Of a stretch of DNA of 44,792 bases, positions 1,508-37,441 are shown piece after piece. How positions within the stretch are numbered: the stretch's first letter is position 1; each line of letters begins with the position of its first letter. A model generated the notes under the pieces. It was not told the origin of the DNA. It did no database searches and saw nothing but the letters and a program-made list of their open reading frames with translations. Position numbers and translations under genes: made by a program. Location: IMG/VR virus record IMGVR_UViG_3300042567_001773, positions 1 to 44,792 of that record, one strand, 5' to 3'. Source of the DNA: a virus.

Positions 1508-3550
<2,043 letters not shown>

Positions 3551-4118: not shown

Positions 4119-4895
4119 CTAGAACTGATAATCCACTTTAGTATGAGAATTAGGGAGTAGATCAAAACCTACCTTATTACCTAACATAATTAAGAAAGGT
4201 GTAATTGGAACAGGAATTGGAATTCCTGAAATTGCTATAACTGGAACAACCTTAATAAGATCGACTGATTGTGCTTTTAAGAATGATTTTTCTTTATCTG
4301 AAACTTTATTTCCTTTAGCTATTTCTGAAAGGATTCTAAGAGCTTCTTTGGTTTCTCTACCTTCTCTTTTTGTAGCATTCCAAACGTCCTTAGCAAATTC
4401 ACCACCTTTTGTTACAGCTTTTTTAACCATATCCATAACACCTTCATCTAAATGAGACCAATCAAAAGACTCATTAATGAATCGATTTCCTAATTCAGGG
4501 AAGAAGAAAGTTAATTCTCTTATAGCTGATTCATCTGAATCTGCCCCGTGTATTGCATTCGAACTTACTTCAGTTCCATAAAGATTTCTTATAGTTCCTA
4601 CATTAGCTAATTTAGGATCCGTATCACCTATAAGCTTTCTGAAATCTTCTACGGTATTTGTATTAGATTCTAAAGCAATAACAGTAACTGATGCAGAAGT
4701 CATAAATTTAATTAGATCCTTAAAGAAAGGTTTTTCTGTATGTTCTTTATAAAACTCTTTTGCTTTTTCATCAGTAAGACGAATTGTTTTGATTGCTATA
4801 GTTCGAAAACCTGCATTGGAAATTCTTTTGATAATAGATCCCGTGTGTCCTTTTAGAGTAGAATCTGGTTTGATGATAGTAAGTGTATAAGACAT
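4119..4895 (-). CDS. ndk: Nucleoside diphosphate kinase with C-terminal extension
   Basis: Residues 1-140 form a complete NDK domain, which transfers gamma-phosphate from NTPs to NDPs and dNDPs. Visible signatures are K9 in TIIKPD, TIRNLYG around residue 101, and the active-site stretch N113-AIHG-A-D-S with catalytic His116. Normal NDKs end near residue 140-150; here about 115 more residues follow. The extension contains NESFDW, charged helices, and a Pro/Ile-rich hydrophobic segment at about 213-240 (IPIPVPITPF) followed by a polar tail, somewhat like LETM1-type C-termini. Such an extension on an NDK is unusual. It lies 5 bp after the dCMP deaminase gene, suggesting a dNTP-supply operon. The kinase call is strong; the tail's function is unknown. 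Confidence 0.88.
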   Translation of the reverse strand: MSYTLTIIKPDSTLKGHTGSIIKRISNAGFRTIAIKTIRLTDEKAKEFYKEHTEKPFFKDLIKFMTSASVTVIALESNTNTVEDFRKLIGDTDPKLANVGTIRNLYGTEVSSNAIHGADSDESAIRELTFFFPELGNRFINESFDWSHLDEGVMDMVKKAVTKGGEFAKDVWNATKREGRETKEALRILSEIAKGNKVSDKEKSFLKAQSVDLIKVVPVIAISGIPIPVPITPFLIMLGNKVGFDLLPNSHTKVDYQF

Positions 4896-6074: not shown

Positions 6075-6524
6075 TTATATCTCTTGAGCGTCTGATTTAT
6101 TCCATTCACCTTTTTTAATAGCTCCTGTTACCCAGTAATCTGCTCTAGATTTTCCTGTTTCTTTCATAACTTTTGCGATTGCGATGTCTTCAACTTTATT
6201 GTTTCGGATTCCTTTCATGTATCTAAATTTCCAATGCAAATTCTTTTTTGAATCAGTATCAGATACAATAAAGCCATCATAATCTCTAGTCATATCTCCT
6301 TCGTTTACTACTGATTCTGTTATTTTTAAGACTTTTCTAGCCTCTTCATAATCAGCACCTGTAATTTGATCATCAGGAAATTCATCAGATATAAGGTCAT
6401 ATAATTCAGAATCTGTTGAAATTCCTTCTTCTTTAGCCCTTTTTATTAATCTTTTGTAATGAGGAGTAGTTCCTTCATTAAGAGATTCATTAACGAACTC
6501 TTCAAATGTATGTAAATTTTTCAT
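6075..6524 (-). CDS. Capsid-targeted (CTS-like) protein of unknown function
   Basis: A 149-residue protein beginning MKNLHTFEEFVNES, the clearest form of the shared N-terminal motif. In T4, internal proteins begin MKTYQEFIAE and are cleaved after Glu by the prohead protease; here FVNE/S would be the equivalent site. The remainder contains short helical and acidic segments with SESVVNEGDMTRDYDGF in the middle and a KKGEWNKSDAQEI tail. The arrangement of residues 20-70 (RLIKRAKEEGISTD...SDEFPDDQITGADYEEA) looks like a small helical domain. I recognise no catalytic motif. It lies 18 bp downstream of the Lys/Glu-rich CTS gene. Packaging into the capsid is inferred from the N-terminus only. Confidence 0.7.
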   Translation of the reverse strand: MKNLHTFEEFVNESLNEGTTPHYKRLIKRAKEEGISTDSELYDLISDEFPDDQITGADYEEARKVLKITESVVNEGDMTRDYDGFIVSDTDSKKNLHWKFRYMKGIRNNKVEDIAIAKVMKETGKSRADYWVTGAIKKGEWNKSDAQEI

Positions 6525-6542
6525 ATCTTTCGATTTAATTTT

Positions 6543-7067
6543 CTATCCTCCAAGACCAGAAGTTAAGCGACCTATAGCTTCACCCCAATCATTATCTTTA
6601 ACTTTAGAAATAAGACCATTGATTACTTTATCGCCAATTTTTTCGTCGTATTTATCACCATGAGCTTTTTTAAGAACTCCTTCAGCATATTCACGGAAAG
6701 ATTTTTCGTCAGTTACTTCGTCTTGACCAGCTTTTTTCTTAGCTTTTTCAGCATCTTTTTCAGCATCTTCAGCCGTAGCTTCAGCGTCTTTAGCTGCATC
6801 TTCTGCCTTTTCTACTTTCTTTTCAAGATCTTTGGTTTCGTCTTTAACCATTTTCTTAACATCTCCTTTTGAAAGATCTTCTTTCAAAGACTTAACGTAA
6901 GAGTTGAATTTTTCAAGATCTTCTTCGTTAAGATCGAGGATTGTTTTAGCTCCCATTTCTTTCAATTTGGATTCGAATAGAGAGTTGAATTTAGTTTCTT
7001 TAGCTTCTTGTGCTTTAGATTCCAAAATAGTCTTGTGTTCTTTTACGAACTCTGAAAATTTTTGCAT
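6543..7067 (-). CDS. CTS-like, Lys/Glu/Ala-rich coiled-coil protein (internal or scaffold-like)
   Basis: The best start is the ATG at 7067, giving MQKFSEFVKEHKTILES; the longer frame begins at a TTG at 7103 and adds Asn/Lys-rich residues that break the shared motif. The 174-residue product is highly charged, with heptad-like runs (EKKVEKAEDAAKDAEATAED and AEKDAEKAKKKAG) predicting a long coiled coil in the middle and a small C-terminal domain ending GLGG. T4 prohead core and internal proteins are also highly charged, helical and begin with a targeting peptide. It could therefore be a scaffold/core component or an injected internal protein. No enzymatic motif is visible. Confidence 0.7.
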   Translation of the reverse strand: MQKFSEFVKEHKTILESKAQEAKETKFNSLFESKLKEMGAKTILDLNEEDLEKFNSYVKSLKEDLSKGDVKKMVKDETKDLEKKVEKAEDAAKDAEATAEDAEKDAEKAKKKAGQDEVTDEKSFREYAEGVLKKAHGDKYDEKIGDKVINGLISKVKDNDWGEAIGRLTSGLGG

Positions 7068-7100
7068 TTTTTGTAGTTTTTTGTTTACGTTATATTTATC

Positions 7101-7114
7101 CAAGCTTCCGCTTG
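7101..7114. other. Small hairpin in leader of the coiled-coil gene
   Basis: CAAGC-TTCC-GCTTG forms a 5-bp stem-loop. On the plus strand it is followed by T residues, but no plus-strand gene precedes it. In the minus-strand mRNA it sits about 34 nt upstream of the ATG at 7067, so it may shape the leader or mark processing. Significance is uncertain. Confidence 0.3.
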
Positions 7115-7127
7115 TTTTTTATTTATC

Positions 7128-7778
7128 TTAATTAATCGGAGTATAATTACTGCCTGTTCGTTGACCTCTATGTATTACAAATCCATCGCCTCCAGTTTCT
7201 ACTGTCCAATTACCAGGAAGTCTTCTTCCTTGCTTCTTAATATATTCGAAATAGAGTCTACCTCTTTTCGTTTGATTCATTGGTTTTCCACCTTCACCAT
7301 CTTCAAGTTTTGGGAATATACGAATTTCTTGTAGTTTTATCCATTCCCATTCTGTAATTTCTTTAACTACAGATTCCATGATTTCAGTAACTGTAGTTAC
7401 TACTCTAAATTGCTCACCAAAATTGGTTATTGCTTCACCTTCTGAGTTTTTCGTATTAAATGAAACTACAATAACTAAATCGAAATCTTGAGGTTTTGGT
7501 GCATTAGGTCTTCTACTAAAACTGATGTGTACATGCCTTTTCCAACCACCTGCTATACTAACAATATATTCAGCGTTTTCGCTTTTGAATTCATATTGAA
7601 GATTAGGTAGCTGTGTCCAATTAGGGTTTGTATCAGCTTTATCTACCATGGAAATATCAGACATCCAACCACCTATTTTTGTAGGTCCTATTCTTCTCCA
7701 ATCGAAAGGTTTTGATCCTTCACCGATCTCATTTAATTTAGCTTCTGTAAGAAATGAATTGAACTTTAGAAAGGTCAT
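7128..7778 (-). CDS. CTS-like protein of unknown function
   Basis: A 216-residue protein beginning MTFLKFNSFLTEAK, which fits the shared F-x-x-F-L-x-E-A pattern with a possible cleavage after Glu12. The body is rich in Trp, Thr and Ile and looks globular; it contains YIVSIAGGWKRHVHISFSRRP and a C-terminal GRLYFEYIKKQGRRLPGNW region. No known catalytic motif is recognised. Its ATG overlaps the stop of the Acb1-like gene by 4 bp, implying translational coupling between two packaged candidates. Confidence 0.65.
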   Translation of the reverse strand: MTFLKFNSFLTEAKLNEIGEGSKPFDWRRIGPTKIGGWMSDISMVDKADTNPNWTQLPNLQYEFKSENAEYIVSIAGGWKRHVHISFSRRPNAPKPQDFDLVIVVSFNTKNSEGEAITNFGEQFRVVTTVTEIMESVVKEITEWEWIKLQEIRIFPKLEDGEGGKPMNQTKRGRLYFEYIKKQGRRLPGNWTVETGGDGFVIHRGQRTGSNYTPIN

Positions 7779-8350
7779 CTTAACTTAAATCCTGATTGTA
7801 TTTTTGTTCCGTCGGGTTTACTATAAACTACTTTCGTAGGGAATACTTCATAAGATCTTTCACCGAATTCTTCCATGTATTTTTTACCTTTACCAGGTTT
7901 CAAATAAGCTATAGTACAATGTGGATGATAATCTGGGAAATCATTAGTATGTGGAAGTTTAACAAGTTCTTTATTCATATTGTGTAAGAATGAACTTCTT
8001 ACATCGAACTTAAGAACATCATAATCTTTATTTTCAAAACAAGAAACATTATGTAGTAGAACAGAAGAAACTCCTGTAGTACAAGATCGAATAACTTCGT
8101 TATCATCGATATCATCAGAATGTAACCCATAAAGTATTGTTACATGTGGTTCTGTTTCTAATCCATCTCCACTTAAATCTTCAGCTACAATCCTTTCATG
8201 AAAGATTTTCATATCTGGAAAATTGAAATGTAGCATTGCACATCCGTAAGGGTATTTCTTATCCTCATCTTTAATCTTCTTATCTTGTTCAGAAGGATGT
8301 GGATCTTTCTTCTCTAAGAGAAATTGTTGAAATGATAGTATATTTTTCAT
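7775..8350 (-). CDS. 2H phosphoesterase, Acb1-like (anti-CBASS), with CTS-like N-terminus
   Basis: A 191-residue member of the 2H phosphoesterase superfamily. Both HxT motifs are clear: H69-V-T71 in EPHVTILYGLH and H144-C-T146 in HPHCTIAYLKPG. The flanks (YGCAMLHFNFPD, EDL, TEPHVTILYG) recall the phage anti-CBASS protein Acb1, which cleaves cyclic oligonucleotide signals, as I remember that family. The N-terminus MKNILSFQQFLLEKK matches the shared capsid-targeting pattern and is followed by a charged linker (residues 14-33). This suggests an enzyme packaged in the head and injected with the DNA. The 4-bp overlap with the next gene implies coupled translation. 2H fold: strong. CBASS substrate: inferred. 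Other 2H enzymes include RNA ligase-like and cyclic phosphodiesterases. Confidence 0.8.
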   Translation of the reverse strand: MKNILSFQQFLLEKKDPHPSEQDKKIKDEDKKYPYGCAMLHFNFPDMKIFHERIVAEDLSGDGLETEPHVTILYGLHSDDIDDNEVIRSCTTGVSSVLLHNVSCFENKDYDVLKFDVRSSFLHNMNKELVKLPHTNDFPDYHPHCTIAYLKPGKGKKYMEEFGERSYEVFPTKVVYSKPDGTKIQSGFKLR

Positions 8351-8351
8351 A

Positions 8352-8777
8352 TTAAGACATAGTCAATAGATAATTAAGTTTATGCATTTCAGCGATAATC
8401 TCATCTATTATATTTTGAATTTCCGGACTGTCGCCATAAACATCTTTTCTGAAAGATACAAAGTTAGAAACTCCGATATTAACGAATTCAGACACATTAA
8501 CATCTTTAAGATTTTGTAGAGGTTGAGTTGCAGTAGGAGTAAAACTTACTCGGCCATGTTTACCCATACAAACTTCAACTGCTTCGTCTAGCTTACCTAA
8601 GAAAGAATCATAAAATTCTCCTAAAGCTTTATGTTGATCACCTACTTCGGTTTGCCAATGGAATAAGTGAATTTGGTTTCTTAACCAAAGACCATACATA
8701 GCCATATCGGAATGTGTTCTGTCTGGATTGTACTTAGCTGCTTCATTTAAGAAATCTTCGTAATTTTGAATTTTCAT
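8352..8777 (-). CDS. Dps/ferritin-like helical protein with CTS-like N-terminus
   Basis: Start chosen at ATG 8777 because it gives MKIQNYEDFLNEAAKY, matching the shared motif, and avoids overlap with the glycosylase gene; the longer frame adds a Lys-rich 12-residue stretch. The 141-residue product is all-helical, with RNQIHLFHWQTEVGDQHKA followed by LGEFYDSFLGKLDEAVEV. The spacing of His, Trp, Asp and Glu is like the first two helices of Dps/ferritin-like proteins (HW.T...H..L..FYD...DE). Dps proteins bind iron and protect DNA. Phages carry small relatives of this type, but whether the metal site is intact cannot be decided by eye. It follows the glycosylase gene by 13 bp and precedes the Acb1-like gene by 1 bp. 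Confidence 0.65.
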   Translation of the reverse strand: MKIQNYEDFLNEAAKYNPDRTHSDMAMYGLWLRNQIHLFHWQTEVGDQHKALGEFYDSFLGKLDEAVEVCMGKHGRVSFTPTATQPLQNLKDVNVSEFVNIGVSNFVSFRKDVYGDSPEIQNIIDEIIAEMHKLNYLLTMS

Positions 8778-8790
8778 AATTCTCTTTTTT

Positions 8791-9177
8791 TTATTGATCG
8801 ATGAATTCACCATTCAGATATCTTATGAGGATTTTATCAGTAGGATTCACATTAGTGTTTCCTTTAATAAATATCTCATAAGAATCATCTGCATATTTTC
8901 CGATACCGTAAAGTTCGGATGCATTAATGAACCTTTTTTCTATATATTCAAGTGAAAACCGTTGAATTCGATTTGTACGGATATTATAGAATCCTAGAGG
9001 TCTAATTAGATCTCGGATATCATCTGGATTAGCCGAAACCACAGATTGTGGAGTTGGCCATCGATCGAAGAAATCATATATAACTTGACGTACATTCTTA
9101 TTGCTAGTTTGATTTAGCATAATACATCCTATTAGCATTTTCCAAGGATCGTGCTGAAATTCTTGTTGTATAATCAT
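8791..9177 (-). CDS. MBD4-like HhH-GPD DNA glycosylase
   Basis: A 128-residue helix-hairpin-helix glycosylase resembling the catalytic domain of eukaryotic MBD4, which removes T or 5-hydroxymethyluracil opposite G. Matching features are DPWKMLIGCIMLNQTS at 10-25, PLGFYNIRTNRI at 60-71, the hairpin LYGIGKYADDSYEIF at 89-103, and NPTDK with D114 at the position of the MBD4 catalytic Asp. It is short but spans the whole MBD4 core. It has no CTS-like N-terminus although it sits among such genes. With a dCMP hydroxymethylase-like enzyme in the same phage, a role in repair or discrimination of modified or deaminated cytosine is plausible; attack on host DNA is an alternative. Confidence 0.75.
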   Translation of the reverse strand: MIIQQEFQHDPWKMLIGCIMLNQTSNKNVRQVIYDFFDRWPTPQSVVSANPDDIRDLIRPLGFYNIRTNRIQRFSLEYIEKRFINASELYGIGKYADDSYEIFIKGNTNVNPTDKILIRYLNGEFIDQ

Positions 9178-9190
9178 AGTTTTTTATATT

Positions 9191-9802
9191 TTATGCTGCT
9201 ATTTGTTCCTGTGCTTCATTATACATTTGAACAGATTCATTTACAAAATCTTCATTCCACCAATAAGGTTGTGGTGAATAATCCCATTTAAGATTCATGT
9301 AAGTAGTTTTCATTGCATAGTATTTTCGATATCCTTCGATAGGTCCGAATTCTTGATAGCAATCAGGAAAAGCTTGAGCAAAAGGTGTTTGTTCGGATGA
9401 AGGAAGATTAGGTGGATTTTGTTTCATCCATCTCATAATTGCTTTGATTGAATGTTCCTTTCCCCATCTCTGTTCAAATACATCACATAGGTGATCGTTA
9501 CATTCCCAAAGCCAATTGAAATTTTCAATAGATTCTCGAGTCCATATTGTACAAGGATGATTTACATGAGTTATTCCGTAAGGATGATCAGATCCATCTT
9601 CATGTTTTCTTGGCCATCCACTAAATAGATCATCTACGGCTTTTTGATTTTCTGGAATTTCCTTTTTACGACTAATTCCAATAGTTGAATAATAAGCTGA
9701 AGCCATCATTTGTGCATGTTCAATAATCATCTTCAATGCATGTTTATCACAATGCATTTCTGCAGCAATATGTGGATCTTTATCCAATACAAATATGTTC
9801 AT
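9191..9802 (-). CDS. Conserved phage-type protein of unknown function
   Basis: Start chosen at ATG 9802 (MNIFVLDKDPHIAAEMHCDK); the longer frame begins 33 nt upstream inside the terminator tail. The 203-residue product belongs to a type I recall from many large tailed phages, with MNIFVLDxDPxxAAxxHCDKHxxKM at the start and conserved HP and W residues (HVNHPCTIWTRESIENFNWLW). The His/Cys/Asp content (HCDKH, HPC) could suggest metal binding. I cannot name its function. It is the first gene after the terminator at 9822-9854, so it may start a new transcript that continues into the glycosylase gene 13 bp later. Confidence 0.7.
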   Translation of the reverse strand: MNIFVLDKDPHIAAEMHCDKHALKMIIEHAQMMASAYYSTIGISRKKEIPENQKAVDDLFSGWPRKHEDGSDHPYGITHVNHPCTIWTRESIENFNWLWECNDHLCDVFEQRWGKEHSIKAIMRWMKQNPPNLPSSEQTPFAQAFPDCYQEFGPIEGYRKYYAMKTTYMNLKWDYSPQPYWWNEDFVNESVQMYNEAQEQIAA

Positions 9803-9821
9803 ATTTTTTATTTTATTATGA

Positions 9822-9854
9822 CAAAAAAAGGTCATCAGTTTTGAACTAATGACC
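9822..9854 (-). terminator. Rho-independent terminator
   Basis: In minus orientation an 11-bp stem GGTCATTAGTT/AACTGATGACC (one A-C mismatch, TCAA loop) is followed by TTTTTTTGTC. It closes the transcript ending with the glycosyltransferase gene at 9877. The bases after the stem (TTTTTTTGTCATAATAAA) are repeated exactly at the terminator near 40423. Confidence 0.85.
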
Positions 9855-9876
9855 TCTCTGTATAATCTGTTAACAA

Positions 9877-10779
9877 CTAAGAAGGAAGTTTCCCTTTAGC
9901 GTTTCTTAAACGAACTGTTAGCTTAGGCATATAAGCAACCTTTTTGCTTTTTGACATTAAGTTATCTAAACATCTACGAATAAAATCTTCATCTCCACCC
10001 ATTTCTTTAGCTCTTTTAGGTGCAGAACTTTTCATTTCAGGAACTGTACGTCCTTTAATCCATCCACAAGTAGGAGCATGATACATTAAGCTACTATGAG
10101 CTGCACCTATTATTTCACCAGGTAAATCTTCGGTAAAAATAACAGGTTTTGAATACTCTCTACCCCAATAATAAACTCCAGTTCCATTACCTTTAGATCT
10201 AGCTTTAGATCCTCTTGTATAAACAAAAGCAATATCTGGATCTTGTTGGAATGCTCTCATTCCTAATTCAAGGTGAGCAGATTTCCAAACGTCATCATGA
10301 TCGATATGAGCAAGATATTCAAACCCTTCAGATTTTGCAAGGGAAATTCCTTTATTGAGTGCAGCAGTTCCAGCAGAATTACGAAGTACATCGTCAGGAA
10401 CTTTACCTCTTTCACCGGGTTCTTTTAGATTAAAGAATGTATATTGCGAAGGCTTAAGTTTATCTTTTAAGATTGCAACAAGTTCTTCTTCTGGTTGAAA
10501 ACAATCACCAATAATAAAAAGCTTCCAATTCTCATGAGATTGATTTTGCAATCCACCAATCATTGCTGTGATCATTGATTTGAAATTGATATAATTTCCA
10601 CGTCCTCTGTTATTATCGTCGATATTATAGGTTGGACATATGATTCCTACTTTAGGTTTAATTACCTCTGTATCTACTGTAAAAGGTTCAGATTTTTCGT
10701 TAATAGATCCGTCTTCTCCGAAAGAATAAATGATCAGATTATCTTCATTAACGAAGTCTTCGTATTTCTTAAAGTACAT
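9877..10779 (-). CDS. Family 2-like glycosyltransferase with CTS-like N-terminus
   Basis: A 300-residue GT-A glycosyltransferase. The domain begins at about residue 43 with VGIICPTYNIDDNNRGRGNY, continues with QNQSHENWKLFIIGDC, and has the metal/nucleotide-sugar-binding acidic motif in AHIDHDDVW. The ED(E) region (GGDEDFIRRCLDNL) is present near the C-terminus. The first 13 residues, MYFKKYEDFVNED, match the shared capsid-targeting pattern and precede a roughly 30-residue linker not needed for the GT fold. It is the last gene of the sugar cluster before the terminator at 9822-9854. It may glycosylate phage DNA, virion proteins or, if injected, a host component; acceptor is unknown. Confidence 0.8.
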   Translation of the reverse strand: MYFKKYEDFVNEDNLIIYSFGEDGSINEKSEPFTVDTEVIKPKVGIICPTYNIDDNNRGRGNYINFKSMITAMIGGLQNQSHENWKLFIIGDCFQPEEELVAILKDKLKPSQYTFFNLKEPGERGKVPDDVLRNSAGTAALNKGISLAKSEGFEYLAHIDHDDVWKSAHLELGMRAFQQDPDIAFVYTRGSKARSKGNGTGVYYWGREYSKPVIFTEDLPGEIIGAAHSSLMYHAPTCGWIKGRTVPEMKSSAPKRAKEMGGDEDFIRRCLDNLMSKSKKVAYMPKLTVRLRNAKGKLPS

Positions 10780-17925: not shown

Positions 17926-18267
17926 TCAACTAAGTTTACAACTCAGTTTCCACATGTTTTCTTTGATATTAGTAATTTTTGAATTTCCTGTTCTTGCAAA
18001 TTTCATACGAGTCATTACTTCGTTTATCTTCTCTATAACAGAATCCATATCTTCGTTTTTTAATTTCTGATATGTTCTTAGAGAGAAAACGTTATCTCCT
18101 TTATGATCGAATATAGACGTAGTATTTTCGTAAAATAAACGACGAGCATTTTCATAATCCCTTTTTAATTCGATATTATTCATGAATTCATTAGTCATAG
18201 ATCCCTTAAGATCCAGAAACACTAATGATTCATTTAAGAATTCGTCATATTTTTTGAATGTGCTCAT
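17926..18267 (-). CDS. Small CTS-like protein of unknown function
   Basis: A 113-residue protein beginning MSTFKKYDEFLNESLVF, an excellent match to the shared N-terminal motif with a potential cleavage at LNE/S. The rest is helical and basic (NIELKRDYENARRLFYEN, VIEKINEVMTRMKFARTGNSK) without a recognised motif. It is small and basic after the predicted cleavage, reminiscent of T4 internal proteins IPI-IPIII. It lies 37 bp before the hydroxymethylase gene and after a 106-bp gap. Confidence 0.7.
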   Translation of the reverse strand: MSTFKKYDEFLNESLVFLDLKGSMTNEFMNNIELKRDYENARRLFYENTTSIFDHKGDNVFSLRTYQKLKNEDMDSVIEKINEVMTRMKFARTGNSKITNIKENMWKLSCKLS

Positions 18268-18310
18268 ATTAATTTTCGTTTTTGAAACTGTCTAGTTAGA
18301 ATGGTCATAT

Positions 18311-18324
18311 AACCAATATTGGTT
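18311..18324. repeat. 14-bp perfect palindrome in intergenic gap
   Basis: AACCAATATTGGTT lies in the 106-bp gap 18268-18373 between two CTS-like genes. A perfect inverted repeat with no loop is more like an operator or protein-binding site than a terminator. No T run follows. Nothing else was recognised in this gap. Confidence 0.4.
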
Positions 18325-18373
18325 GTTTAGGTAAAAGGAAATAGAGTTTACTGATAGACTAGGTCAATTAAGT

Positions 18374-18766
18374 TTACTTTGAAGGTTCTGGCTTTTCACC
18401 TTTTCCTTTTAACCAATCTGCTATATCTGAATCAGTAGTTTCGTACCCTTTCGTTTTTTCTATAAATGCATTTAGTCTTGCATAACCCCAAGCGTTATAA
18501 GCAGCAGGTTTTCCTAGTTTCTTGATATTAGGATTTACTGCTCCCCAATTTGTTTGTGCAGCACCATAACCTCTTTTGAAAAGGATCATTAAAGCATCTT
18601 TCAACTTAGCTGCAGAAGCTCCTAATTTAGCTTGAACTTTTGGATCATTAGCTAAATCGTCGATTCTTTTTTCAGGTCCACTTTCATCAGCTTCATTAAG
18701 AAGATATTCTTCATTCATTGCAATTGAACGTTTGAAGTTGTTAAGTAAGATAGGTTTTGATAACAT
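18374..18766 (-). CDS. Small helical protein, weak CTS-like N-terminus
   Basis: Start taken at ATG 18766 (MLSKPILLNNFKRS), which avoids overlapping the upstream gene; an internal ATG at 18718 would give MNEEYLLNEADES, which carries the Y-L-L-N-E-A core of the shared motif. The body is Ala/Lys-rich and helical (AKLGASAAKLKDALMILFKRG), followed by a sequence with conserved look (GKPAAYNAWGYARLNAFIEKT) and a basic/acidic tail. No function is recognised. It belongs to the second run of candidate packaged proteins. Confidence 0.6.
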   Translation of the reverse strand: MLSKPILLNNFKRSIAMNEEYLLNEADESGPEKRIDDLANDPKVQAKLGASAAKLKDALMILFKRGYGAAQTNWGAVNPNIKKLGKPAAYNAWGYARLNAFIEKTKGYETTDSDIADWLKGKGEKPEPSK

Positions 18767-18780
18767 ATTACGATTTAATT

Positions 18781-19455
18781 TTATGCGTAAGCTTCGATTG
18801 CCCATTGAATTACCGCTAAAGGATCTTCACCTGGATTGTTTTTTCTAACATAATCAAGTAGACTTGGATCTTGTTTAGCATTTTGTGCCATATCAAAAGC
18901 ATGTTCTGCACCACCGTTACCAGACATATCTTTTATCCATTTGTCATATTCTTTTTTGTTCCATCTTATAGATTGACGTTTCTTAGCATGTGGTCCATCT
19001 CCTAATCTAGATGTTACTGCATCATAAGTACCAGGTACAAAAACTTCCACGTTAGATCCATCTCCATATTTGATATCTTTACGGAATTTTCTAAGCATAT
19101 AATCAGCCGTTTCTATTTGTTTAGTAATAGTTACTTCTCCGGTACTTTTACCATAAGCAATTTTAAGATCTTCTTGCTTTTTAGGATCTGTTTCAAAATG
19201 GATATCTTTGAGTTTATCTTGATATCCTTCATTAAGAGAATCTTCGTTCATTTGCTTTCCAAGATCCCATATTTCTTTAAGGAATTCATCAGAATCTTTC
19301 ATTTTTGCAATTTCCTTAAAATCAGATTTTGCGTTCTTAATGAAATCATTAAGTGTTTTCGATTCTTGACGAGTGATATCTAATTCACTCATAAATCCTT
19401 CATCTACTTTACGAGATTCATTAACGAACTCTTCGAATGTGTATAATTTTTTCAT
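18781..19455 (-). CDS. CTS-like protein of unknown function
   Basis: A 224-residue protein starting MKKLYTFEEFVNESRKVDEG. Besides the possible FVNE/S site, further prohead-protease-like sites appear at VDE/G and LNE/G within 80 residues, so the N-terminal helical part may be trimmed in steps. The C-terminal 100 residues are a distinct domain with GPHAKKRQSIRWNKKEYDKW and SGNGGAEHAFDMAQNAK. I recognise no enzyme. Its ATG overlaps the stop of the next-upstream CTS gene by 4 bp. Confidence 0.68.
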   Translation of the reverse strand: MKKLYTFEEFVNESRKVDEGFMSELDITRQESKTLNDFIKNAKSDFKEIAKMKDSDEFLKEIWDLGKQMNEDSLNEGYQDKLKDIHFETDPKKQEDLKIAYGKSTGEVTITKQIETADYMLRKFRKDIKYGDGSNVEVFVPGTYDAVTSRLGDGPHAKKRQSIRWNKKEYDKWIKDMSGNGGAEHAFDMAQNAKQDPSLLDYVRKNNPGEDPLAVIQWAIEAYA

Positions 19456-19835
19456 AATTTACCGTCTTTAACTCTATCTCTAGATATTGATTTAAGAAGA
19501 TCTTTCTCTTCTGTATTTAATTTTTTGTCTATTAGCTTTTGCCATTTTCCTTTTTGTTCTCTCATTGGTAAATTAAGAAATGCTAAAACGTCTGCATCGT
19601 CTTTAAGTCGATCAAGTACTTTGTTTACTCTCCTGTCTTTCTTCCAACGGTTCCACCATTCTTTAATCGATCCAGTATCTCCTCCACTAAAACCTCCAGA
19701 TTTTTGGATTGCCAAAGTAAGCATTAAGGTGGATTGCATAAGCAACATAAAAGAAGTTATCAAAGAAGAACTATCTTCATTTAACATTTCCTCTTGTTCA
19801 TTAACAAATTCTTCAAATGTGTGTAAGTTTTTCAT
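19452..19835 (-). CDS. CTS-like protein with hydrophobic segment
   Basis: A 127-residue protein beginning MKNLHTFEEFVNEQEEMLNED; the first 13 residues are identical to those of the protein at 6075-6524. Residues 23-46 (SLITSFMLLMQSTLMLTLAI) are hydrophobic and could be a membrane or amphipathic helix, followed by a Gly-rich turn and a basic helical tail (WWNRWKKDRRVNKVLDRL). A packaged protein with a membrane-active helix could act in DNA entry or superinfection control, but this is only inference. Confidence 0.68.
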   Translation of the reverse strand: MKNLHTFEEFVNEQEEMLNEDSSSLITSFMLLMQSTLMLTLAIQKSGGFSGGDTGSIKEWWNRWKKDRRVNKVLDRLKDDADVLAFLNLPMREQKGKWQKLIDKKLNTEEKDLLKSISRDRVKDGKL

Positions 19836-19837
19836 AG

Positions 19838-20188
19838 TTATGTCATGTAAGCGTATTGTGAATAGACTTTACCGTCTATTTCGTATTGGTATAGAATAAC
19901 TGGATCCTTAAAAGAATCTGTTGTTTCTAATCTGATAGCTTTTGCACCAATGTTTTGTGGTTTGTGTGTAGTTTTGTGAAAAGTTTTATTAGGTTCAAAT
20001 GTTGAAAAATCTTTAGATACCGAAGTCCAAGGATTTGAATAAGTTTTCTTCGGTTTGAATCCTACCTCTACAACTTTACATTTTCCTAAAACAGGTAATT
20101 CTATTTCATCCCCAACTTCATGTTCAATTGTGTAAGGATGATTATATCCTTCATTTACAAACTCTTCGAATGTGCTTAAGTTTTTCAT
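19838..20188 (-). CDS. CTS-like small beta-rich protein
   Basis: A 116-residue protein starting MKNLSTFEEFVNEGYNHPYT, with an ideal T4-type cleavage context (VNE/G). The rest is beta-rich with EVGDEIELPVLGKCKVVEVGF and a C-terminal VILYQYEIDGKVYSQYAYMT, resembling a small SH3/barrel-like domain. No functional motif is seen. It overlaps the upstream CTS gene by 1 bp and precedes the next by 2 bp. Confidence 0.68.
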   Translation of the reverse strand: MKNLSTFEEFVNEGYNHPYTIEHEVGDEIELPVLGKCKVVEVGFKPKKTYSNPWTSVSKDFSTFEPNKTFHKTTHKPQNIGAKAIRLETTDSFKDPVILYQYEIDGKVYSQYAYMT

Positions 20189-20526
20189 TATTTCAAGATT
20201 TGAATTTTGTATTTATCGTAACCGTGATCAGCAAGAACTTTATTAGCAGCAACAATAATATCTTCAGTTTTTAGCTTAGTACTAGTCTTTGGAACGAAAT
20301 TAATTGAAGCTGAAAACATTCCACGACCTTTCGGGTGTGCCATAGGTGATCCTATAAGTTGAAAAGGCATTTTTGTTTTAAGTTCCTTTTCTAATGCTTC
20401 TAATCCCTTTCCTCTTGAAAGAAATGAAATTGCATCTAACATGGAATTCATATCGTTTCCTTCTAGTTCTCTCCAATCGTCTCTTGATTCATTAACGAAT
20501 TCTTCGAATGTGTTTAAGTTTTTCAT
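20188..20526 (-). CDS. CTS-like small protein of unknown function
   Basis: A 112-residue protein starting MKNLNTFEEFVNESRDDWRE. The rest has a small alpha/beta look (MLDAISFLSRGKGLEALEKE, MFSASINFVPKTSTKLKTED, IVAANKVLADHGYDKYKIQIL), as in compact ferredoxin-like folds. No catalytic motif is seen. It is the fourth of five tandem genes whose first 13 codons are near-identical. Confidence 0.68.
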   Translation of the reverse strand: MKNLNTFEEFVNESRDDWRELEGNDMNSMLDAISFLSRGKGLEALEKELKTKMPFQLIGSPMAHPKGRGMFSASINFVPKTSTKLKTEDIIVAANKVLADHGYDKYKIQILK

Positions 20527-20527
20527 A

Positions 20528-20794
20528 TTAGTTATATTTGTCTGATTCTATTTGATCTGCCGTCATTAGATCTACTAGAGCTTTGAAAGCAGCAAATGTT
20601 TTTTTCGAATATTCTAAATCTCCCATCATTCTATCAGCGTAGTCATCTAGGTGATTAGCTAAAGGAACTAGAACTTCATCAAAAGTAACAGAATTAACTC
20701 TATCATCTTTATATTTAGATGTTACGTATTTAAGAGCCTCATTGCTTCTTGCAGCTTCATTTAAGAACTCTTTGAATGTTGATAAATTTTCCAT
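20528..20794 (-). CDS. CTS-like small helical protein
   Basis: An 88-residue protein starting MENLSTFKEFLNEAARSNEA, with an LNE/A site exactly of the T4 prohead protease type. The mature part would be 75 residues, acidic and helical (VLVPLANHLDDYADRMMGDL, AFKALVDLMTADQIESD). It is the first of the five-gene tandem in transcription order and abuts the gene at 20795. Function unknown. Confidence 0.67.
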   Translation of the reverse strand: MENLSTFKEFLNEAARSNEALKYVTSKYKDDRVNSVTFDEVLVPLANHLDDYADRMMGDLEYSKKTFAAFKALVDLMTADQIESDKYN

Positions 20795-31033: not shown

Positions 31034-33247
31034 TTATCTTAACATAGTAACATTTCCTTCGATCATATACTTACCGTCGTTTGTCTTATCTCCAAATCTT
31101 ATTTGATAAACATAGATTCCATCCGGACAATAAGACATTCCATATGTTCCGTCCCAGTATCCATTTGGATCATAACTTTCAAATATCAATTCTCCCCATC
31201 GATTGAAGATTGTAACATGGAATTCAGTAGGATCGAATCCACTAGTGAAAATCCATTTGAATGTGTTATTATGTTCATCACCATCTGGAGTAAAAGAATT
31301 AGGAACATAAAAAAGAAGTTCAGGACATCTCGCAATAGTTATTCCTGTAGATTGAGGGAGTGAAGAGCATCCATTTGCCCAATTAACAACCGATATCTCA
31401 AACATTCCTGGAGAGTTCCAAGTAACGTCTAGATTTTGAACTTGATATGTTTGATTCATAAAAGTCCATTCGTTATAGCCGTTGGAATTCGATGCTGTTA
31501 TGAATGTACTTAAAACAGAATCACCTTCACATAATTCAAAGAATACGTTATCAGGAGATATTGGTGTGATGATAGGTCTAGGGAAAACAACTGTTGTGAT
31601 TGTATCATCGAATAAACATCCCGATTGAATGTAAGTGTAGATGATCGTGTCAGAACCAATGTTATTAATAGAAGGACAAAATTGATTTCCATTCACACCA
31701 TTTCCACTGAATGTACCGTTAAGAGGTATAGCATTAAGATTAACACAATCATCATATTCACAAAGATTGCTTATTAGTGTTATTGTAGGGATAACATTAA
31801 AGACTGTTAAATCGAAAGAAACAGGAAGACTAAGACATCCATTAGGGTTTATTGAAATTACATCAATAGCTCCAGGAATAAATCCTGAAGTTGTAGAACT
31901 CCAATCGACTTCAACTTCATAAGGGTTTGGATTTGTAATGATATTACCTACAGATGACCATTGATAATTCCATCCAGCTCCAAGATTAGGAACTGAATAA
32001 AATTCAGAAGGACTACCAAAACAAACAGTATCGGATCCGACGATAGGACCAACAGTAGGAACAGGAGGATTAGTTAAAATTACATTACCATTTACCGTAC
32101 ATCCGGCAGCATCTGTTATTAAGAAGTTATAAGGTCCTGAACAAAGTCCTGTTAAATTAAAGTTAGGTGGGGGTCCATTCCAAGAAATTGTTTGTATTCC
32201 AGATCCACCGATCGGTGTAATGTTAATAGTTCCGTCACAAGAACCTGAACATAGAGGATTTGTAAAGTTAATTATTGGTGGTGCTAGATTGGGTGGTCCA
32301 GGTAGAACGAATACCGTATCAGGTCCTAGACCTATTCCTGCATTACAAGTCGACCAACCAGCATTACATATAGGATAAACAAAATGACAAGTATAATTTG
32401 CACCTGCAGGTGGAGGAGTAACTGTAATTGTGGGTCCTGTTCCTATTGCCACGGGATTACCCACCTGATACCAAGTGAGTATCGGAGTGACTTGAGGTCC
32501 AGAAGGAGTCCATCTCCAAGCATCATTGTTAGCTGTCCATGCTGTTGAGTTTCTACCAGGAACGGTAACCGATGCAGATCCTGCTGCATTATGAATCCCT
32601 TCGACTGAAGTTCCTCCTTGCCATTGAGTACAAGCTGGTTTGCTTTGTATGAAGTTATCAATGTTGTTTGTTGATTCATATATGACGATATGGAAGGTTC
32701 CTTGATTTCCTGTACATGAAAACATAGGAACCCCAATCCAACTAACTGTAAGTTTTCTGCATGGTGCAACTCCTGAAGTTTGATATTTGATTTGACCTCC
32801 AATTCCAGGATGCCAGTCTTGCCAAGGTCCCATAATACAGTTCTTCGGAACGAGTCCGTTGATTGTAGGTAATGGTGCTGAGGTGAAAGTCGTTGGTTGT
32901 CCTCCACTAAATGATATCCAACCGTTTGAGCCGATATAGAATTGTGTGTAGGTTGAACCATAAAAACAAAAATTAAAGCCAATCGGAAAAGGGCCTTGTT
33001 GAGAATCATCGGACATAAAAACCGAAGTTCCTGTATTAGTTTGTGCAACATAAGGTATATTAGTTACTGAATAATTAGTAGTTTGATTTGGTCCAGGACC
33101 TCCAGGTCCACATTGACTTAAATCTGCAATTAAGGTAGTCGAATTTATTCCACATGGAAGAAATTGATCAGGGCCTAATGCAGGGCAAAATTGAGCAGAT
33201 ACTGAAATTTGCAGAAAGACTGCAATTCCAATTAGTAGTTGTTTCAT
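31034..33247 (-). CDS. Secreted adhesin-like protein with SprB-type repeat and T9SS type B sorting domain
   Basis: A 737-residue protein of a kind normally found on Bacteroidota cell surfaces. Signal peptide MKQLLIGIAVFLQISVSA is followed by QFCPALGPDQ. Residues 70-255 form a nidogen-like beta domain (FPIGFNFCFYGSTYTQFYIG, SNGWISF). Around 325-395, NPLCSGSCDGTINITPIGGS and LCSGPYNFLITDAAGCTV match the SprB repeat of gliding adhesins. Ig-like segments follow. The C-terminus, FYVPNSFTPDGDEHNNTFKW and FNRWGELIFES...YWDGTY...CPDGIYVYQIRF, is the CHU_C/T9SS type B sorting domain, so export through the host type IX system and surface attachment are expected. It is transcribed with the second T9SS gene (9 bp apart). 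Confidence 0.88.
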   Translation of the reverse strand: MKQLLIGIAVFLQISVSAQFCPALGPDQFLPCGINSTTLIADLSQCGPGGPGPNQTTNYSVTNIPYVAQTNTGTSVFMSDDSQQGPFPIGFNFCFYGSTYTQFYIGSNGWISFSGGQPTTFTSAPLPTINGLVPKNCIMGPWQDWHPGIGGQIKYQTSGVAPCRKLTVSWIGVPMFSCTGNQGTFHIVIYESTNNIDNFIQSKPACTQWQGGTSVEGIHNAAGSASVTVPGRNSTAWTANNDAWRWTPSGPQVTPILTWYQVGNPVAIGTGPTITVTPPPAGANYTCHFVYPICNAGWSTCNAGIGLGPDTVFVLPGPPNLAPPIINFTNPLCSGSCDGTINITPIGGSGIQTISWNGPPPNFNLTGLCSGPYNFLITDAAGCTVNGNVILTNPPVPTVGPIVGSDTVCFGSPSEFYSVPNLGAGWNYQWSSVGNIITNPNPYEVEVDWSSTTSGFIPGAIDVISINPNGCLSLPVSFDLTVFNVIPTITLISNLCEYDDCVNLNAIPLNGTFSGNGVNGNQFCPSINNIGSDTIIYTYIQSGCLFDDTITTVVFPRPIITPISPDNVFFELCEGDSVLSTFITASNSNGYNEWTFMNQTYQVQNLDVTWNSPGMFEISVVNWANGCSSLPQSTGITIARCPELLFYVPNSFTPDGDEHNNTFKWIFTSGFDPTEFHVTIFNRWGELIFESYDPNGYWDGTYGMSYCPDGIYVYQIRFGDKTNDGKYMIEGNVTMLR

Positions 33248-33256
33248 ATTCTAAAT

Positions 33257-34324
33257 TTATTGTTTCCAAATTTTATCGATTACTCCATTGAATTCTCGTA
33301 TATAGATTCCAGCAGAAGCTTTTTCGATGTCTATTTTTTGTCCATCCATTGTGTAGTAATTAAATTGGTAAGATTTGTTCGAATTTATCTCGACTGATGT
33401 AATATCATAAAGCTTATTCTTACCATCATTATCGACTTGATTTAGGCGGTAATAATACATCATTGGATCTAGATTTTTATCGACAAAATCATAACGAAGT
33501 TTTTGATTGCTATTTCCAGCAGCATTTATAATTCCAACTACTTTCCAGTTTTCACCGTCAACAGTTCTTTGAATTTCATAGTAGTATGAATTAGATTCAG
33601 ATGCCGTTTCCCATACAAGAACAGCATTATTTTCTACAGCCTTACCTTCAAAATAAATAAGTTCAACAGGCAAAGGTGTATTAATTATTTCATGAAGTTC
33701 GAAATTATCTAACCACCATTCTTCACCAGCAGAATTAACTCGACAATAAATATCAATTGCTATATTGCTTGTTGCTGGAGGAATGTTTAGACGGATATTA
33801 GAATAACCGTCACCTGTACTTGTTCTATTTCCTCCTGCAGCAGGACTTATCGTTGTAAGTGTTCCATTTGCTGTTTTCGTATAGGATGAACTGTTATAAT
33901 CCCAAAATGCATTAGAAGCTCCTGTAATTCTTAATTCATTTACATATGAGGTTCCTCCATTTGTGCTTAATTGGACCGTAATATAATCTGCTGCATCAAC
34001 CCCTCTAGTAGTAGCAGTTGAAGTAAATCGATAAGATCCTAAACGAAAAGTTAGGTAATAATCATTAACTGGATTCACTGCAAGATTAGGGAATGAATAC
34101 CAATCCTGTTCTATTGCTGATGAAGCATTACCTGCTCCATATATAACAGCACTAGAAGTAGATGAAACAAATGCGTTTGTGTAGTAATTTGTTGTTGCAG
34201 CGGGAATAAACCATAATCCCGACCAATCGGCATCGAAAGTTTCTATGTAATCTTTACGGTATATTGCTTGTGATATCGATATATTACTCATCAAGATCAC
34301 AATTAAAAAAAGGACGTTCTTCAT
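33257..34324 (-). CDS. Secreted protein with T9SS type A-like C-terminal sorting domain
   Basis: A 355-residue protein. Signal peptide MKNVLFLIVILMSNISISQA precedes a beta-rich domain (residues 27-215; ETFDADWSGLWFIP, WWLDNFELHEI) like carbohydrate-binding or MAM-type domains. Residues 220-325 have the fibronectin-like LPVELIYFEGKAVENNAVLV, WETASESNSYYYEIQRTVDG and YYYRLNQVDNDG typical just before T9SS signals. The end YTMDGQKIDIEKASAGIYIR...IWKQ is a T9SS type A-like sorting signal, with only about 35 residues. Together with the following gene it forms a two-gene surface-protein unit inside a phage operon. Its function is unknown. Confidence 0.82.
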   Translation of the reverse strand: MKNVLFLIVILMSNISISQAIYRKDYIETFDADWSGLWFIPAATTNYYTNAFVSSTSSAVIYGAGNASSAIEQDWYSFPNLAVNPVNDYYLTFRLGSYRFTSTATTRGVDAADYITVQLSTNGGTSYVNELRITGASNAFWDYNSSSYTKTANGTLTTISPAAGGNRTSTGDGYSNIRLNIPPATSNIAIDIYCRVNSAGEEWWLDNFELHEIINTPLPVELIYFEGKAVENNAVLVWETASESNSYYYEIQRTVDGENWKVVGIINAAGNSNQKLRYDFVDKNLDPMMYYYRLNQVDNDGKNKLYDITSVEINSNKSYQFNYYTMDGQKIDIEKASAGIYIREFNGVIDKIWKQ

Positions 34325-37087: not shown

Positions 37088-37441
37088 TTAGTGTTTGAAT
37101 TCCATATTCTCGGAAACATCAACTAACTCTAAGAAGTAATTAGTCACTTTACTTTTTGTAGGGTTATATCTCCCTTTTGTAGTAAGTTTCGTTACACCCA
37201 TTTGTTCTGGATTATGTGACATTCCCCACATAGCATAGTAATGAGGACGTTTTGATCGGCCATCTTCTCTAGAATCTCTCCATTTTTCTTCAGTAGTCCA
37301 CCAAGTTCTTCTACTCCATGAAGTTTTAGTTTTCTTAACTTGGTAAGTTTCTATAAGCTTAAAGCATTTGCCGTTGTTATGTGTAACTTCAAGTAGAACG
37401 TTACATTCACCTAGTTTTTCGTGTTCTATTTTATTCACCAT
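37088..37441 (-). CDS. Hypothetical protein
   Basis: A 117-residue basic protein with a Trp/Arg-rich middle (KTSWSRRTWWTTEEKWRDSR). No family is recognised. It overlaps the HExxH gene by 7 bp and ends just before promoter module 5, thus last in its operon. Confidence 0.62.
   Translation of the reverse strand: MVNKIEHEKLGECNVLLEVTHNNGKCFKLIETYQVKKTKTSWSRRTWWTTEEKWRDSREDGRSKRPHYYAMWGMSHNPEQMGVTKLTTKGRYNPTKSKVTNYFLELVDVSENMEFKH

Follow-up and report, generated by a model that had tools for sequence, protein, structure and literature searches.

Can a phage head carry, together with its DNA, an enzyme that destroys the nucleotide signal of a host immune system? The question is raised by a small gene in a viral record (IMGVR_UViG_3300042567_001773), in which a 2H phosphoesterase domain resembling that of the anti-CBASS protein Acb1 follows an N-terminal peptide resembling the leaders of T4 internal proteins. 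We judge the chances to be somewhat better than even that this Acb1-family 2H phosphoesterase is head cargo, i.e., targeted to the capsid, probably cleaved, co-injected, and acting on a nucleotide immune signal.

The tagged gene and its protein

The window, by which we mean the whole 44,792-nucleotide stretch analyzed here, is an IMG/VR record in the form of a linear 44.8-kb fragment with 65 ORFs. When 22.5 kb of the window was compared with annotated phages by megablast, nothing matched, and PADLOC gave no match either. The sequence points to a Bacteroidota host, because the protein encoded at 31034–33247 carries a CHU_C type IX secretion domain. This minus-strand product (737 aa, with a signal peptide, SprB/PKD-like repeats, and the CHU_C domain at its C-terminus) is apparently exported by the host T9SS, and the C-terminus of a second signal-peptide protein (33257–34324, minus strand) resembles, by eye, a T9SS type A sorting domain. 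The minus-strand ORF at 1508–3550 encodes a 680-aa protein with collagen-like GPTG/GIQG repeats; this protein and the contig end (1–640), where similar repeats occur, are probable fibres.

The ORF of the 2H protein is real, and the features read from it in the original prediction are present (Table 1). The N-terminus reads MKNILSFQQFLLE/KK (here and below, a slash marks the end of the tag), with a prohead-protease cut predicted after E13 of FLLE, and is followed by a charged linker. Both HxT motifs (H69-V-T and H144-C-T) are in place, and the pair is not due to chance, because H69, T71, H144, and T146 are all invariant in a 58-member alignment. In the full-length AlphaFold model, computed with the 58 relatives, pLDDT exceeds 90 over most of the chain beyond residue 32, whereas the N-terminus is modeled with low confidence and contains one short helix at residues 7–13. 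The next in-frame Met, M39, lies within the first strand of the domain, and a start that omitted the tag would therefore harm the 2H domain. The stop codon of the upstream tagged gene lies one base ahead of the 2H ATG.

Table 1. Positions in the window of the 2H gene, its parts, and the other tagged genes
Feature	Position	Strand	Details
Tagged Acb1-family 2H phosphoesterase ORF	7775..8350, stop codon included	minus	191 aa; ATG at 8350, stop ending 7775
Putative capsid-targeting sequence MKNILSFQQFLLE, residues 1–13	8312..8350	minus	Window tag, T4 IPII/IPIII MKTYQEFIAE, homologs
Charged disordered linker, residues 14–32	8255..8311	minus	AlphaFold pLDDT <50 at residues 15–27
2H phosphoesterase domain, residues 33–191	7778..8254	minus	Truncated model pLDDT 94.6, pTM 0.86; Foldseek 2H fold
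First HxT motif, H69-V70-T71	8138..8146	minus	H and T invariant in 58 sequences
Second HxT motif, H144-C145-T146	7913..7921	minus	H and T invariant in 58 sequences
Tagged gene, MKNLHTFEEFVNE/S	6075..6524	minus	Shared N-terminal tag
Tagged coiled-coil-like gene, MQKFSEFVKE/H from internal Met	6543..7103	minus	Shared N-terminal tag
Adjacent tagged gene, MTFLKFNSFLTE/A	7128..7778	minus	Homologs near tagged 2H genes
Adjacent tagged DUF5856/Dps-like gene, likely start M13 (MKIQNYEDFLNE/A)	8352..8813	minus	Shared tag
Tagged family-2 glycosyltransferase, MYFKKYEDFVNE/D	9877..10779	minus	Shared N-terminal tag
Second tagged cluster (MKNLxTFEEFVNE type): 17926, 18781, 19452, 19838, 20188, 20528	17926..20794	minus	Shared tag

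Enzyme family and candidate substrates

The 2H protein scores 36.5 bits against the Pfam Acb1 model (PF23474, cut-off 27), in line with the Acb1-like phosphoesterase originally proposed, and falls barely inside the 2_5_RNA_ligase2 family (27.2 bits, cut-off 27). All 58 aligned relatives match both models (E ≤ 0.01), and only 8 match LigT_PEase. In addition, the protein matches PHROG 755 (E = 3.7e-13), to which T4 gp57B, which is Acb1, also belongs by its match (E = 5e-68). PHROG 755 is labelled RNA ligase in PHROGs v4; the label hides the Acb1 family, as the match of T4 Acb1 indicates, and annotations taken from it may mislead. In a profile search of the PDB, chains named Acb1 rank first, weakly (E = 9e-4 and 0.02), and hhalign against T4-type Acb1 gives E = 6e-6 across the second HxT block. 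Judged by its sequence, we accept the window enzyme as a member of the Acb1 family.

The likeness to Acb1 (T4 gp57B and FBB1 Acb1) extends to the 2H fold, the HxT/HxT tetrad, the DFxDYxPHxT block, and the phage origin. The tetrad of T4 Acb1 is formed by H44, T46, H113, and T115, the bases are stacked by Y12, W74, F107, and W147, the adenine is read by E141, and a C-terminal lid is present (PMC9117128). By eye and sequence, F105 and F138 of the window enzyme are plausible counterparts of W74 and F107, respectively, and F105 is invariant among the aligned 2H relatives. Unlike in Acb1, however, the position of Y12 is occupied by an alanine (A38), and no counterparts of E141 and W147 in the lid could be recognized, either in sequence alignments or by eye. 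The window enzyme further differs in its low identity to Acb1 and in its N-terminal tag and linker, neither of which T4 Acb1 has.

In Foldseek, the domain-only AlphaFold model (residues 33–191) has a 2H fold, with human Usb1 as the top match by E-value (2.0e-5) and Acb1 at 2.8e-5; TMt is highest for Acb1 (0.63) and TMq for Usb1 (0.66). The E-values of Usb1, plant CPDase, Acb1, viral 2′,5′-PDEs, a poxvirus cGAMP PDE, and LigT differ by no more than roughly tenfold. On the strength of these models, the comparison confirms the 2H superfamily and does not separate its branches; because Usb1 and plant CPDase stand level with Acb1, structure alone does not pick the substrate. The 2H fold anticipated by the original prediction is thus borne out, and the refuting outcome named alongside it, a structural best match to RNA enzymes, is half reached. 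As an arbiter between Acb1 and the RNA CPDases, the structure search was set aside, the scores being tied for both the full-length and the domain-only models.

The rank of Usb1 would suit a packaged Usb1-like RNase that trims host RNA on entry. However, Usb1 uses HxS, whereas the site is an invariant HxT/HxT in the 58 sequences, and the identity of the 2H protein is 10% to Usb1 versus 15–21% to the Acb1 group. Although a Usb1-like RNase role was suggested by Iyer et al. for phage 2H domains (PMC5512222), we regard such an activity here as very improbable.

A second alternative retains the packaged enzyme and assigns it another immune signal, either the linear or cyclic oligoadenylates of type III CRISPR systems or the NAD/ADP-ribose-derived signals of TIR systems. 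The Foldseek matches include 2′,5′-oligoadenylate PDEs (4ye2, 4z5v) and the ADP-ribose cyclic phosphate CPDase (1fsi, 1jh6), both with scores like that of Acb1, and degradation of nucleotide signals was among the proposals of Iyer et al. for phage 2H domains (PMC5512222). We nevertheless consider these substrates unlikely, since the sequence families put the protein nearest to Acb1 and two of the base-stacking positions appear to be kept.

The enzyme might instead serve in RNA repair, as a 2′,3′-cyclic phosphodiesterase that heals RNA ends before a phage RNA ligase joins them, a role proposed for jumbo-phage 2H enzymes (PMC7824862). It shares the 2H fold and motif with ThpR/LigT, and a T4 Rnl1-type ligase is encoded by 11 of the 18 long relatives. 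The match to TIGR02258, the NCBIfam equivalog for RNA 2′,3′-CPDases, is weak, however, and at 19.5 bits lies far under the cut-off of 65.7. The ligase is absent from the other 7 long records, which are possibly fragments, and none was found in the window; in the 256-kb contig G001, it is encoded far from the 2H gene and lacks the strict F-type tag (described below), its N-terminus MNKKILDKYVEE fitting the loose pattern only. We find RNA repair quite unlikely, and take a CBASS-type cyclic oligonucleotide as the most likely substrate.

The N-terminal tag and its link to head genes

The tag of the 2H protein is shared by other genes of the window. The pattern [FYLM]xx[FLY][VILMF]xE within the first 25 residues matches 13 of the 65 ORFs, of which 12 are convincing, the match at 37435 appearing fortuitous; when the N-termini are shuffled, 1.0 ORFs are tagged on average and 5 at most (2000 shuffles), and the pattern matches 1% of internal windows. 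The 12 tagged ORFs start with versions of MKNLxTFEEFVNE and lie in two stretches (6075–10779 and 17926–20794), the second of which also includes a gene at 18374 that lacks the strict tag. Homologs of both neighbors of the 2H gene recur near 2H genes elsewhere. The homologs of the 7128–7778 gene occur near tagged 2H genes (adjoining in L045, and also in L040) and each carries the tag of its own genome, MKHIHLFEDFINE from a GTG start and MKHIQLFEEYMLINE, so that this protein may possibly be a functional partner of the 2H enzyme; a homolog of the DUF5856/Dps-like gene lies beside the 2H gene in L011/L012. Outside the two stretches, a minus-strand ORF at 4119–4895 encodes a nucleoside diphosphate kinase domain (residues 4–134), and its C-terminal extension opens with a tag-like RFINES stretch.

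Among the 80 nearest relatives, collected by scanning viral contigs with the 2H-domain alignment, a strict tag ending in hydrophobic-x-E precedes the 2H domain in 52, being of the F-type (MKHIKLFEEFVTE/KK) in 28 and of the L-type (MIKLKDLLTE/Q) in 24. The remaining 28 include variants missed by the strict patterns, such as MKTIKDFITE/KK, MRFLKTYAGLFES, and MNLNEELSKMKSIMGINE/NK. A relaxed pattern was dropped, as 36% of unrelated genes match it too. In the untagged relatives L003, L006, and L010, the 2H domain begins 8–15 residues past the first Met, which argues that the tag is a separable extension. ORFs were called simply (mostly ATG starts, greedy removal of overlaps) and the contigs are metagenomic. 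In one of them, L083, five consecutive genes (839–2576) begin with MK(V/I/L)(V/L/I)I(T/S)E, possibly the head signal, in very short form, of a further group of phages.

The tag follows the genome in which it is found. In G001, the loose tag pattern occurs in 50 of 331 ORFs (shuffle mean 13.4, maximum 24; 300 shuffles), and the 2H gene belongs to a row of small tagged genes (193,196–200,277). Across the loci, the 2H tag is closer to the N-termini of neighboring genes than to those of other loci (observed 23.8, permuted 20.1 ± 0.5; 0 of 20,000 permutations, p < 1/20,000), whereas an internal 2H segment, used as a control, shows no such effect (p = 0.94); kinship between loci inflates these tests somewhat, and would inflate the control segment likewise. 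With 35 of its 59 inner branches open, the 2H-domain tree has little resolution; on it, the tag style needs several changes, exact numbers being unsafe. At the level of sequence, the wording of the tag is genome-specific, and the 2H gene carries the wording of its own genome.

The same wording is found in head genes of several relatives. A gp21-type (S77) prohead protease is encoded by 14 of the 18 long relatives and a gp23-type capsid gene by 15; in the 44.8-kb window fragment, the prohead protease was not detected and the capsid gene likewise lies outside, so the link to the protease rests on the relatives. In L103, L104, and L182–L186, the S77 protease is part of a 600–680 aa protein, far longer than T4 gp21. 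In G001, G002, and G014, the gene directly next to the S77 protease, on the side of the presumed portal gene, carries the tag style of the 2H gene, starting with MKKLIKTFEQFIFE/AEAV, MKTYIKTFEQFIFE, and MKTIKTFEQFIN, respectively. The 2H protein of G004 starts with MIKLKNLIKEE, and genes between its large terminase and capsid genes start with MIKLTNIIKEE, MKLKNLLNEE, and MIRLSKIVNEG. In the huge phage LR745206, the 2H protein starts with MKLKKYKQFIKES and a gene shortly past the capsid gene with MKINKYKKFLEK. With self matches excluded, the 2H tag resembles its own head cluster over those of others (p = 0.004–0.005).

The peptide could also be a different lineage-wide signal, for partner docking, turnover, or compartment targeting, in which case the enzyme would act only when newly made. 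Some tagged genes of the window, such as the glycosyltransferase and the Dps-like gene, are not obvious head cargo. Set against this are the T4-like wording of the tag, its presence on genes inside the portal–protease–capsid cluster, and the prohead protease in most relatives, and we hold such a signal to be quite improbable. The capsid-targeting N-terminus of the original prediction is, instead, strongly supported by comparative genomics, through the recurrence of the tag, the relatives, and the head clusters.

Proposed course and precedents

The analysis shows the domain and its catalytic motif, the tag and its recurrence, and the ties of the tag to the protease and the head-gene clusters in relatives; packaging, cleavage, injection, substrate, and benefit are inferred. 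Residues 1–13 would act as a T4-type capsid-targeting sequence that binds the prohead core and brings the 2H enzyme in. A gp21-type prohead protease would probably cut after E13; the P1′ residue at the predicted cut is Lys, not Ala, Ser, or Gly, which counts against the proposed course, as does the lack of a tag on the 2H gene of some phages that encode an S77 protease, L003 and L006 at least. The mature enzyme would be packed with the DNA and leave the virion with it at infection, and its HxT/HxT site would hydrolyze a phosphodiester of the immune signal ahead of any phage protein synthesis. Comparison between phages supports the first of these steps. The pool of enzyme made late in infection could also act ahead of packaging. 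A pre-emptive benefit would matter most against signaling that begins at DNA entry or that blocks early expression.

The closest precedents for the tag are the T4 internal proteins. IPII and IPIII begin with MKTYQEFIAE (followed by A), and the leader sends proteins into the prohead, where it is cut off by gp21 (PMC5694885, PMC12373910). As in IPI–III, a short leader ending in hydrophobic-x-E is here found on unrelated small clustered proteins. Ip1–3 are directed into the head by their leader, injected, and active against type IV restriction enzymes (PMC12373910), whereas none of the known T4 internal proteins is a 2H phosphoesterase. In T4 itself, ipI is the gene next to 57B/acb1, and Acb1 has no leader. 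For the 2H domain, a precedent of delivery with the phage DNA is the prediction by Iyer et al. of 2H domains in injected polyvalent proteins, with degradation of nucleotide signals as one option (PMC5512222). Those proteins combine at least two disparate domains and are multidomain MuF or portal fusions, whereas the window ORF consists of a single 2H domain behind a short T4-type leader. Among the relatives, Tunturi_5 gp321 (L009, 4552–8640), annotated as MutT/NUDIX, has 1362 aa and several domains, one of them a 2H domain; it is encoded beside a head–tail connector gene and is likely such a polyvalent injected protein by its sequence.

Our literature search, from which subscription journals and preprints were largely absent, found no report of a packaged, virion-associated, or tagged Acb1-type enzyme, nor a paper on the phosphodiesterase of Burkholderia phage BCSR5. 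Within that search, the novelty originally claimed holds for a tagged Acb1, but not in the sense of a strategy wholly lacking precedent, given the injected 2H domains (PMC5512222) and T4 Ip1–3 (PMC12373910). What appears to be new, since we met no earlier description of it, is the placing of a T4-type capsid signal before an Acb1-family enzyme of one domain, in a combination that recurs among large phages and follows the head signal of each.

Related phages share the tag and the enzyme, and so may deliver a destroyer of immune signals with their DNA. We would give slightly less than an even chance to the wider proposition that large T4-like phages, at least those of Bacteroidota and huge metagenomic ones, widely preload their heads with Acb1-family enzymes, whose tag co-varies with the head-targeting signal of the same phage, and thereby disarm nucleotide immune signaling from the first moment of infection. 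To our knowledge, the proteins with which phages answer nucleotide-signal immunity are understood to be made anew in the infected cell; a head-packaged enzyme would act without delay, even where the defence halts the expression of phage genes, and would bring together two known themes, the injected internal proteins of T4 and Acb1. Through the genome-specific tag, effectors that uncultured large phages may inject could also be listed with little effort, the tagged candidates including GNAT, zeta-toxin-like, and ATP-grasp proteins.
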